A stretch of DNA of 64,000 nucleotides from Umbribacter vaginalis (lineage in GTDB: Bacteria; Actinomycetota; Coriobacteriia; Coriobacteriales; Eggerthellaceae): the NCBI GenBank assembly GCA_001552935.1, contig KQ959677.1, positions 150,094 through 214,093 of the forward strand. Direction: 5' to 3'. Of this stretch, positions 28,352 through 32,837 are shown piece by piece; position 1 is the first letter of the stretch; the number at the start of each line of letters is the position of its first letter. The translations under genes and the position numbers were made by a program. The notes beneath the pieces are model-generated. The model saw only the letters and a list, made by a program, of their open reading frames with translations, did not search any database and was not told the origin of the DNA.

Positions 28352-28401
28352 CCTGCATTGGTGTATTATTCCCCACTCATTTTGGTCTCTTACGTTTACT
28401 A

Positions 28402-28428
28402 AAAAGCTCCTGGTGCGCAGGAGCTTTT
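28402..28428. terminator. Bidirectional terminator between rpsT and copA
   Basis: AAAAGCTCCTG and CAGGAGCTTTT form an 11-bp stem with a five-base loop. T-runs follow on both strands, so it can end rpsT (plus) and copA (minus). The remaining 28429-28571 shows no gene. Confidence 0.9.
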
Positions 28429-28571
28429 CTCATATAAACTACGAGGCACAAAACACTGCGTAGATCGTGCTTTAGCCTACGTTATATAGAATGTAGCGTG
28501 CGCGCACCGTTATTGCACTACGCACCATGCTTATAAGCACTCTTGATACGCTGTAGCAGTATCTCTTATGC

Positions 28572-28781
28572 CTACGACAACGATGTAACTTCATAGCCTG
28601 CTTCAACGATAGCGCCGCGCAGCGTATCATCACTTACATTAGCACTGCATTCTATCTGAGCATTTTTATGTTCAAGACTTACTTCAACCTTTGTTACGCC
28701 ATCAAGTGCTTCAAGCGCTTTGGTAACATGCGCAACACAGTGACCACACATCATTCCTTCGATTCCAATTGTTTTCTGCAT
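28572..28781 (-). CDS. copZ: Candidate free CopZ copper chaperone made from an internal start in copA
   Basis: The last 69 codons of copA start with ATG at 28781 and encode a complete HMA domain: MQKTIGIEGMMCGHCVAHV to the C-terminal VEAGYEVTSLS, with the beta-alpha-beta-beta-alpha-beta pattern and size of CopZ. The strand just before the ATG carries AAAGGAGC with seven bases of spacing, a strong ribosome-binding site lying inside the copA frame. A free copper chaperone may therefore be made in addition to the fused one. The same reading frame and stop are used; independent translation is inference. Confidence 0.5.
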   Translation of the reverse strand: MQKTIGIEGMMCGHCVAHVTKALEALDGVTKVEVSLEHKNAQIECSANVSDDTLRGAIVEAGYEVTSLS

Positions 28782-31577
28782 AATAGTGCTCCTTTCATTA
28801 TGATTAGCGCGCTTATGGGCGCCTGTGGTAGTACTTACAACACATGATAATGCAATCGGCTCAATATGAACATCGACACGTTGCATAGTGTCGCGTGTAT
28901 TATTTGAAGTGCTTCGCGCAGGCTTAAAGCGACGTAAACGAAGTGCATTACTTACGACGCACACCGACGACATGCTCATCGCAGCAGCTGCAACCATCGG
29001 ATTTAACACGAATCCGATGCCGCTTAAAACGCCTGCCGCTACAGGGATACAAAGCGCGTTATAGAACAATGCCCAAAATAAATTTTGCTTAATAATTCGC
29101 ATTGTTGCGTGCGAAAGTGAAAGCAGTGTTACTACATCAAGGACAGAACTGTTCATTAAAACAGCGTCGGCGCTCTCAATAGCAATATTTTTGCCAGCGC
29201 CAAGAGCTATACCAACATCAGCACGCGCAAGCGCTGCAGCATCATTAATACCATCGCCCACAAACGCACACGGCTGCTGAGCTGATACACGTTTTACATA
29301 CGCATCTTTCTCAACAGGGCTTACCTGTGCTTGAACAGTAGCAATGCCTAGTTCTCGCGCAATGACGCGAGCAGTGGTTTCATTGTCACCCGTAAGCATA
29401 CTACAATGAACATGGTTGCTTGAAAGCAATTGAACAGCTTGAACGCTTGATGGTTTAAGAGTATCAGACAAAGCAATCACACAACGTATCGACACACCAT
29501 CGCTTAAGAACAGCGCTGTTTGCCCTTTATGCGCTAAACTCCAAGCGCATTCAGCAAACACAAGAATTGCTTCTAACTGGCATATATCATAATCCACACA
29601 TGCAGGTTCATGCTGTATTTGTGCGAGAATTTCACTTCTATGATCATCCATGATGCTTTGCTTAGCTACTAACGAAGCCGAAAGCACATCCTGGAAAGCA
29701 TCAACTGCATGTTCGGTGTTAGTCTCCCCATTCCCACACCTGCGTTCAACAGCATCAAACGCACTATCGAACGCGCGCTGCAGCGAATCAGACAGTGTAA
29801 ACTTATTTCCTAAACGAATAACACTTCCTTGGTAGCTCGCTTGAACACCACTTGATTCAAGTACGGCGACATCGTTGAGCTGTTGCAGTTCAATATCATG
29901 CTCTTGCGCATAGCTCACAATAGCGCGTGCAAGCGGATGATTAGAAGCTTGTTCCATGCTTGCAATCAGACTGAACACGTCACGTGGCGTCTCGGATGGC
30001 AGATGATACAACGCACATACGCTTGGATTTCCTGTAGTAAGCGTTCCTGTTTTATCAAAGACAATCTCTCGAATATCGCTAGCACGCTGTAATATTTCTG
30101 CATTTTTAATAAGGATTCCCAGTTTAGCACCGCGTCCTGTAGCTACCATCAGCGCAGTAGGCGTTGCAAGACCTAAGGCACACGGACATGAAATTACCAA
30201 TACCGATACTGCGTGCACAAACGCAGTATCAAGCGATGCGCGCACGATCACAAGCCATACGAGAAAGGTAATAAGACTAACAGCTAATACAAAAGGAACG
30301 AAATATTTACTAACCGTATCTGCAAAATGCTGAATGGGTGCTTTAGTTGAAGTTGCATCGTCAACAAGCTCGATAATACGTGCCAAAAGCGTATCGTTAC
30401 TCGTTTTTTGGATGCGCATATGAGCAAAGCCCGAAACACACATACTGCCTGCAAGCACTTCGTCATCTTGCTTCTTATCGACAGGAAGCGATTCTCCGGT
30501 AAGTGCCGATTCGTCGCACGTTGCAAAACCTTGTACAATAACACCATCAAGTGCAATCGTTTCACCAGGGAAAACGGCAATAGTCTGACCTACCTGAAGC
30601 TGATCGACTGCACATTTTTGCTGCGTTCCATCATCAAGAATACGGGTAGCATACGTAGGCGCAAGCGCGATAAGCGAATTAAGTGCCGATGTTGTTTTTG
30701 CTTTAGCGCGCGCTTCAAAATACTTACCAAGAGAAACAAGCGTTAAAATCATCGCTGCAGATTCAAAATAAATAGCATGTGAACGATGAAGTGCCAAGTC
30801 AATATGCTGTGATCCTAAATACCACAACACGACAAACAGCGTGTAGAGTCCATAGATTAACGCACTACCAGCACCTAAAGCAACAAGTGTGTCCATCGTG
30901 GGCGATTTATGCAAACACGCTTTCCAGCCGCGTTCAAAAAAATGCCAATTGAGGATAACAACTGGCAATGCACATAGGAATTGTGCAAAACAGATAATGC
31001 CCACGAACGCAGGATCGTAAAACGCAGGCGGAAGTGGCAAGAAAAACAAATGACTTAAGCAGATATACAACAAAGGAATACTGAAAAGTGCCGATATAAT
31101 AAGATGCGTGCGTTGCTGATGAAGCTGACGTGCGGCATCTGCGCTCGAAGAGTTAGAAGCACTTGAAGCGTTGCGTGCGTTTTGTGTGCCTGTCTGGGGC
31201 AACGCCGCGCTTTCTTGTACCCCCGTCGAGCACGACAAGCCCGCTGTGTTCACAGCACCGCAACACGCGGCATTACTTGACGCGTCCCCAGCACCTGCTT
31301 GATCGTATGCGCTGGTAGATGGTTTGTAATTAGTAAGTGAAAACGACTGTGCAGAAGATTCGCGAGCGCCTTGAAACTGCGTTGGATACCCAGCATCAGT
31401 CACAACGCGACATACTTCCTGCTGATCAAGGTCTGTATTGCTTCCTGTTATAAGCATAGTACCTTTAAGCAAATTAACTGCTACATCATCAACACCACGA
31501 CAACTACGTGCAGCTTTTTCTACACGTGCTGAACAAGCAGCGCAACTCATTGATGCAACATTAAACTTCATTTGCAT
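28572..31577 (-). CDS. copA: Copper-exporting P1B-type ATPase with C-terminal CopZ-like domain
   Basis: This protein pumps Cu(I) out of the cytoplasm. Domains in order: an N-terminal metal-binding HMA with MSCAAC (10-15); a low-complexity linker with extra cysteines (about 71-150); membrane helices; the actuator TGES (360-363); the CPC metal motif (464-466); DKTGTLT (508-514); the N-domain SNHPLARAIV; GDGINDAAALA; and the last two helices ending in MSMSSVCVVSNALRLRR. After a 50-residue linker comes a second, CopZ-like HMA (933-1001) with MMCGHC. The ATG at 31577 follows AAGGAG by seven bases; the longer open frame begins at a TTG. No copper regulator gene is adjacent. A glycosyltransferase gene lies 66 bp upstream. 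Confidence 0.92.
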   Translation of the reverse strand: MQMKFNVASMSCAACSARVEKAARSCRGVDDVAVNLLKGTMLITGSNTDLDQQEVCRVVTDAGYPTQFQGARESSAQSFSLTNYKPSTSAYDQAGAGDASSNAACCGAVNTAGLSCSTGVQESAALPQTGTQNARNASSASNSSSADAARQLHQQRTHLIISALFSIPLLYICLSHLFFLPLPPAFYDPAFVGIICFAQFLCALPVVILNWHFFERGWKACLHKSPTMDTLVALGAGSALIYGLYTLFVVLWYLGSQHIDLALHRSHAIYFESAAMILTLVSLGKYFEARAKAKTTSALNSLIALAPTYATRILDDGTQQKCAVDQLQVGQTIAVFPGETIALDGVIVQGFATCDESALTGESLPVDKKQDDEVLAGSMCVSGFAHMRIQKTSNDTLLARIIELVDDATSTKAPIQHFADTVSKYFVPFVLAVSLITFLVWLVIVRASLDTAFVHAVSVLVISCPCALGLATPTALMVATGRGAKLGILIKNAEILQRASDIREIVFDKTGTLTTGNPSVCALYHLPSETPRDVFSLIASMEQASNHPLARAIVSYAQEHDIELQQLNDVAVLESSGVQASYQGSVIRLGNKFTLSDSLQRAFDSAFDAVERRCGNGETNTEHAVDAFQDVLSASLVAKQSIMDDHRSEILAQIQHEPACVDYDICQLEAILVFAECAWSLAHKGQTALFLSDGVSIRCVIALSDTLKPSSVQAVQLLSSNHVHCSMLTGDNETTARVIARELGIATVQAQVSPVEKDAYVKRVSAQQPCAFVGDGINDAAALARADVGIALGAGKNIAIESADAVLMNSSVLDVVTLLSLSHATMRIIKQNLFWALFYNALCIPVAAGVLSGIGFVLNPMVAAAAMSMSSVCVVSNALRLRRFKPARSTSNNTRDTMQRVDVHIEPIALSCVVSTTTGAHKRANHNERSTIMQKTIGIEGMMCGHCVAHVTKALEALDGVTKVEVSLEHKNAQIECSANVSDDTLRGAIVEAGYEVTSLS

Positions 31578-31643
31578 ACGCAATCTCCTTAACCGTGTCT
31601 AGAACATATTCGCGAACACACCGTGAAACCACTATGCAAACTG

Positions 31644-32837
31644 CTAGTTAAAATTAAACAGCTTTTGAGCGATACGATACCCTGTCATACCTATTGCTCT
31701 TCCTGTTTTTCCTGGTAAATTCATACCAACGTTAACAATATTTTTGCGAATATGCGGATAAGTTACCGGCTGCTTTTCTTTCAAATACAACCACACGTCT
31801 TCAAGTTTTGCTAATGAATCGGTCGTATTGATCATGCGTAAAAATACCGAACAAATACAAAACATAATCGCAAGATAATTCTCCATATACTTACGCAACT
31901 TGGGATTAAGCGAAATTGTATCAAGATTAATGGTATCAATCATCAGTTTTGTTACACGAATATGCTGGTCAATACGCGATTTCATAATATCTTCGTTCAC
32001 GCTTTGACCTTCACGACCAATAAAATAGCGATACATGTCAACATTAAAATAACGAATTGTTTTTACAGCGACTAAAGGCACATACACAAAAATATTGTCA
32101 ACGTAAAAACAATGCTCAGGCAATTGAAGGTGAACATCATACAACAGTTGTGTACGATAAATTACAGAATGCATCAATAGATACTGGCTTGGGCGAAATG
32201 AATTGATATCACTCCAGGTAAATATCTTGTCTTGAGGAAACACATTCGTATAACCCATAGGCGTTTGGGTGTGCTCGTATACTTTTTCATACACATAGTT
32301 GCCAACAATTAAATCAACAGGATGTTCAGTTTCTGCTTGCTCGTAAATGAATTGCATAATAGTGCGCATCGATGAAGTATCAAGCCAATCATCAGCATCA
32401 ACAACTTTGAAATACAATCCTTTTGCACGCTGTAAGCCCGCATTTACCGCCGAGCCATGCCCTCCGTTTTCTTTATGGACAACGTGAATAAGATGCGGAA
32501 AACGTTGCTGCCACTCATCTAATTTGCGAGCAGTTTCTCCATCAGTCGAACCATCATCAACCGCAATAATTTCAATAGACGCATCAAGAGAAGTATCAAT
32601 AGAATCGTCACGAGAAGCTGAATTATTACCATGTATAGTGCCACTATTCGGTAAACTTTCATCATCTTGCCTATGAGGCGCAATGCATGCAGCCTTGAGC
32701 GCGCTTAACGTGTTTTGATTATGTAAAGAGTTGCTCTCACGTGGAGCGCAATCGGCAAATGATAACAGCGATTTCATACACGTATCAATATACGGAGCAG
32801 CATTATAACATGGGATAACTAAGGACAATACTTTCAC
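31644..32837 (-). CDS. Glycosyltransferase family 2
   Basis: The GT-A fold is clear: VLSLVIPCYNAAPYIDTC at the start, AVDDGSTDG, NGGHGSAVNAGL and the metal-binding VDADDWLD. It would transfer a sugar from a nucleotide donor to a surface glycan or lipid; the acceptor cannot be told. No membrane helix is evident. A block of about 57 Ser/Asn/Asp-rich residues (31-87) is inserted between the first helix and the DDGS strand, where other members have a few residues. It lies just upstream of copA on the same strand, with no obvious functional link. Confidence 0.85.
   Translation of the reverse strand: MKVLSLVIPCYNAAPYIDTCMKSLLSFADCAPRESNSLHNQNTLSALKAACIAPHRQDDESLPNSGTIHGNNSASRDDSIDTSLDASIEIIAVDDGSTDGETARKLDEWQQRFPHLIHVVHKENGGHGSAVNAGLQRAKGLYFKVVDADDWLDTSSMRTIMQFIYEQAETEHPVDLIVGNYVYEKVYEHTQTPMGYTNVFPQDKIFTWSDINSFRPSQYLLMHSVIYRTQLLYDVHLQLPEHCFYVDNIFVYVPLVAVKTIRYFNVDMYRYFIGREGQSVNEDIMKSRIDQHIRVTKLMIDTINLDTISLNPKLRKYMENYLAIMFCICSVFLRMINTTDSLAKLEDVWLYLKEKQPVTYPHIRKNIVNVGMNLPGKTGRAIGMTGYRIAQKLFNFN

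Follow-up and report, generated by a model that had tools for sequence, protein, structure and literature searches.

A candidate internal translation start for free CopZ within fused copper ATPase genes of Umbribacter vaginalis and other bacteria

Described routes to a free copper chaperone

In reviews and papers CopZ is described either as the product of a separate gene or, in Escherichia coli, as a product of frameshifting within copA (PMC7558416, PMC10187127, PMC5009743). The E. coli event, which gives rise to CopA(Z), is a programmed -1 frameshift (Meydan 2017; Drees 2017; as cited in PMC7558416 and PMC10187127). The copA gene considered in this work lies in a window of 64,000 nucleotides of Umbribacter vaginalis DNA and resembles that system in that one copA mRNA would give both the pump and a free chaperone equal to one HMA domain. 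The means are different: E. coli releases the N-terminal domain through a slippery site and a pseudoknot, whereas the window gene would release its C-terminal domain from its own in-frame Shine-Dalgarno (SD) sequence and ATG. With a candidate chaperone that is C-terminal, in frame and provided with its own start, the gene falls outside the E. coli type of CopA(Z) frameshifting.

Three other systems are close to this arrangement in part. The csoR/copY-copA-copZ operons encode the same proteins in the same order, but there copZ is a separate gene, while in the window it lies inside the copA frame with no stop before it. In cas8, an in-frame start yields Cas11, a separate subunit that corresponds to the C-terminal portion of the larger protein (for example Cas11b of Haloferax, PMC11899642); its function is unrelated, and the domain of the window gene is a complete CopZ family member. 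Finally, a copper ATPase whose C-terminus bears an extra metal-binding domain, as in the window CopA, has been described; the passage on it presents the domain as regulatory and mentions no internal start like the candidate one of the window CopA. In open-access papers no account was found of a CopZ whose translation begins at a start inside copA, and copper handling by one gene with two products through in-frame internal initiation was not found described in that literature and appears to be new.

Architecture of the copA frame and its nested copZ

The features of the locus, all on the minus strand, are as follows.

28572..31577, minus strand: long copA frame, HMA - P1B copper ATPase - linker - HMA, encoding the long product
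31575..31577, minus strand: main start codon of copA, with AAGGAG upstream and a 7-nt spacer
28782..28935, minus strand: variable linker from the ATPase end (NALRLR) to the C-terminal HMA, open, with approximate boundaries
28789..28795, minus strand: internal SD AAAGGAG, 7 nt before the internal ATG, conserved in relatives
28779..28781, minus strand: internal start codon ATG, kept in 55/57 fused family genes
28572..28781, minus strand: nested copZ of 69 residues with MMCGHC, the predicted short product

The frame comprises 1001 codons with zero stops, and Pfam recognizes in it two HMA domains, an E1-E2 ATPase and a hydrolase. The N-terminal HMA carries the motif MSCAAC, the core contains DKTGT, TGES, CPC and GDGxND, and the copper subfamily profile TIGR01511 scores 546.6 bits against a cut-off of 397; by motifs and profile alike, the protein is a P1B-1 copper ATPase (CopA). 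Between DKTGT and the ATPase end (28930-30060) it has about 70 more residues than its relatives, with the catalytic motifs intact, and its branch in the tree is very long (2.47).

The linker, of about 50 residues, contains no stop and leads to the C-terminal HMA (residues 935-997), which exceeds the cut-offs of two NCBIfam CopZ families (99.5 bits against 95 for NF033794; 99.4 against 85 for NF047957) and has CopZ relatives of solved structure. On its length, its MxCxxC motif and these family cut-offs, the nested HMA is classified as a CopZ family member. The first-pass annotation had read the copA frame as open into a complete 69-residue HMA with MMCGHC, preceded by a good start signal; the reading frame and the profiles agree with the former, the spacing of AAAGGAG (7 nt, equal to that of AAGGAG at the main start 31577) bears out the latter, and its coordinates for copA and the nested HMA were right wherever checked.

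In the genome of the window, the assembly of which is about 92% complete, no further HMA protein was found, which leaves the nested frame as the sole CopZ candidate observed there. A promoter consensus scan of the minus strand at 28400-31900 revealed no separate copZ promoter, which is weak evidence. Shortly upstream of the internal SD, a 15-codon frame (28751-28798) begins at an out-of-frame ATG and overlaps both the SD and the internal start, possibly by chance. The whole genome gave no match to a CsoR-type repressor; a gene of this type precedes copA in locus L319, Roseburia and Ruminococcus.

Distribution of the fusion and conservation of the internal start

The occurrence of the fusion was determined in a family sample of 80 CopA loci, the window included, gathered by similarity in the ATPase half with the C-terminus ignored. 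Of these, 57/80 are fused, among them all three congeners, and 23/80 are unfused; the latter have a CopZ of another type (MSLFS..., GMHC) past the copA stop, or none found in the flank. The fusion is also present in 31 further genes of related groups (third set), and in 78/80 loci returned by a genome scan, mainly from Bacillota (Lachnospiraceae, Oscillospiraceae) and one from Treponema, a proportion that reflects the choice of Bacillota loci by similarity to a fused query, which favours fused genes. In the RefSeq plasmids of Roseburia sp. 831b and Ruminococcus albus 7, the fused gene is annotated as the long ATPase alone, and the internal ATG is preceded by GAGGA and AAGGAGG, respectively. 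The fusion and its internal start occur in dozens of genera of at least two phyla, with unrelated linkers.

In the family the linkers measure 27 to 121 codons, compared with 16 to 102 in Bacillota, and they have little sequence in common; the final 15 nt before the HMA retain the SD and the ATG. Other in-frame ATGs within the same fused genes served as the comparison set for the anti-SD matches, all counts including related species, whose relatedness inflates them. In the family, at least 5 nt match before 53/55 internal HMA starts vs 48/1387 (3.5%) other in-frame ATGs, and at least 6 nt before 49/55 vs 1/1387. The corresponding values in Bacillota are 74/77 vs 169/2320 (at least 5 nt) and 61/77 vs 27/2320 (at least 6 nt), and in the third set 20/31 vs 11/754 (at least 5 nt) and 31/31 vs 120/754 (at least 4 nt). 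The 6-nt matches are almost confined to -14 to -12 in the family and -16 to -14 in Bacillota, and information content reaches 1.3-1.9 bits at -12 to -8 vs about 0.1-0.5 over most of the linker. In one gene (L069) GTG replaces the internal ATG, the SD being intact. A conservation of this kind indicates that the internal SD and ATG of the window are not a chance site; the first-pass annotation had named poor conservation in relatives as what would speak against its proposal, and the site proved conserved, with an SD of at least 5 nt in 53/55 family genes.

The first-pass annotation had also considered that the fusion might be a recent loss of the copA stop, a sequencing error or merely a former operon junction. 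Recent stop loss and sequencing error are ruled out, the same fusion being common to the three congeners, 57/80 family loci and the 31 and 78 genes elsewhere, in dozens of genera; a mere former junction is at odds with the same internal start recurring across those genera behind unrelated linkers. In its fullest form, a relic would consist of once-separate copA and copZ genes, joined when the copA stop was recently lost, whose old ribosome-binding site no longer functions. Related groups do have adjacent copA and copZ genes with an SD before copZ, and in locus L067 the stop of copA and the SD of copZ share bases. However, the fusion is common to the genus and most of the family, and the linkers have diverged beyond alignment while the SD and ATG persist, which contradicts this explanation across dozens of genera and makes it barely credible.

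In a second alternative, the SD-like stretch starts nothing and instead aids the folding of the last HMA, either by pausing translation or through a constraint on the amino acids. Lys-Glu is frequent at the site, so part of the SD signal could be peptide, and a null model in which each site was recoded by the gene's own synonymous codon use (1000 trials) yields 6-nt matches in about half of the family genes. The matches observed exceed this null in both groups, with 49/55 in the family (null mean 25.6, maximum 35) and 61/77 in Bacillota (null mean 20.8, maximum 32). Where Lys-Glu pairs occur at the site, the Lys codon is AAG in 44/46 (family) and 40/45 (Bacillota), vs 74/118 and 205/397 elsewhere. 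Moreover, the SD is read in varying codon registers: the window encodes Glu-Arg-Ser at its site, instead of the Lys-Glu of most others, because the motif falls in a different register there. Protein constraint would thus explain the SD conservation only in part, and peptide constraint alone is insufficient after the recoding and register tests. The match also accompanies a start codon, at the distance expected of a translation start, and disappears from genes with a separate copZ (L202, L186). A second HMA placed behind a first at the N-terminus has no need of a start, and in such tandem pairs the second domain showed no ATG with an SD of 5 nt; therefore, a Met with an SD is not a general feature of HMA domains, an explanation which these tandem domains rule out. 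Overall, a pause or constraint without initiation is improbable, and the site is best described, from its comparative pattern, as a putative in-frame internal start with an SD at start-like spacing, conserved beyond peptide constraint.

Low GC content and weak folding are usual at translation starts. Both are seen at the site in the family (GC 0.51 vs 0.65; MFE -5.9 vs -15.6 kcal/mol) and in Bacillota (GC 0.32 vs 0.53; MFE -1.7 vs -11.0 kcal/mol), with shuffled windows indicating that the weak folding mostly follows base composition.

Only two of the 57 fused family genes, L202 and L186, lack both the internal ATG and the SD, and each of their genomes has a separate copZ near copA. In L202 the free copZ begins shortly past the copA stop, with its SD adjoining TAA, and its product is closer than L202's own fused domain to the C-terminal HMA of sister genes (40/67 identical to those of L215 and L231). 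The free copZ of L186 is located some 2 kb upstream, also on the same strand, and its ATG is preceded by AGAAAGGA. Near the 55 family genes with the internal start, no other CopZ was found in flanks of about 0.9 kb upstream and 1-2.6 kb downstream, and a genome-wide search of 13 genomes with the internal start gave no extra CopZ-like HMA beside copA. The extra HMAs near copA that were inspected in relatives are of the LDCANC type. Among these, L308, L309, L311 and L314 have stand-alone HMA proteins of 79-90 residues, situated within about 1-6 kb of copA in several relatives and on another contig in one; they were rejected as free CopZ, since LDCANC-type proteins are more like zinc/cadmium-ATPase domains. 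Fisher's test for a separate copZ where the start is lost (2/2) vs kept (0/55) gives p = 0.0006, which is strong but not formal evidence, given that the searches covered unequal distances and that the species share ancestry. The internal start appears to be lost where a free copZ exists, a pattern to be expected after a duplication and a subsequent division of labour.

Two putative products of one gene

The long product requires separate consideration. It might be that the internal start yields free CopZ while the long fusion has no role, its frame being merely open, as the unconserved linker sequence and the related groups that manage with separate genes would allow. In contrast, a stop or frameshift cutting off this CopZ type was found in none of the 80 family loci, while base-shuffled linkers would stay open about 28% of the time, a figure that derives from linkers defined as open and is to be weighed with the 80-locus census. 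In addition, the fused domain of L202 keeps MMCGHC beside the free copy. A fusion without a role is consequently doubtful, if less so than a pause or a relic, and the long CopA-CopZ product is probably also kept by selection, the evidence for it being weaker than that for the internal start.

In a quick tree of ATPase cores, the family genes and the Bacillota genes group separately, and about five gains or losses of the fusion are required within the family. A gene from another family of the same phylum (L262), with AGGAGG, 6 nt and ATG before its C-terminal HMA, is placed among tandem-HMA pumps, which suggests more than one origin of the fused gene with an internal start; the branches of L262 and of the window gene are long, however, and their positions in the tree are uncertain. 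The copA of Acidaminobacter (L067, 6001-8634) ends in TAGGAGG, its stop overlapping the SD of a separate copZ, and is one step from fusion.

The whole is in all likelihood explained by a single mRNA from which both a pump carrying a tethered HMA and, through internal initiation, a free CopZ are made. Ribosomes starting at 31577 would make the CopA ATPase bearing an HMA domain at both termini, whereas those starting at the conserved internal SD and ATG 28781 would make its last 69 residues as free CopZ, which would carry Cu(I) to the pump; ribosomes on the long frame may interfere with internal initiation. Selection would keep both products, retaining the start signal and the open linker frame and leaving the linker sequence free to change. 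We infer initiation at 28781 from the conservation of the internal start signal, and with it the accumulation of the short protein and its function as CopZ. The first-pass proposal that one frame gives a long CopA-CopZ and a short CopZ has in this way gained strong comparative support, initiation itself being deduced.

More broadly, it is probable, on comparative grounds, that copA genes of Coriobacteriia, Clostridia and at least one other group form a large two-product class with an in-frame CopZ behind a conserved internal ribosome-binding site, in which a single mRNA determines how much chaperone is tethered and how much is free. This would be a second independent route beside E. coli frameshifting, with a chaperone that annotation misses. 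Since only the long frame is annotated, CopZ can appear to be absent from genomes that carry the fused gene, those of common gut genera among them (Faecalibacterium, Roseburia, Ruminococcus and probably Eggerthella). If the internal start works, these genes would provide a clear example from nature of a nested translation start under selection, as well as a testable system for the separate roles of tethered and free chaperone. The production of pump and chaperone from one gene would then have evolved via at least two translational routes.
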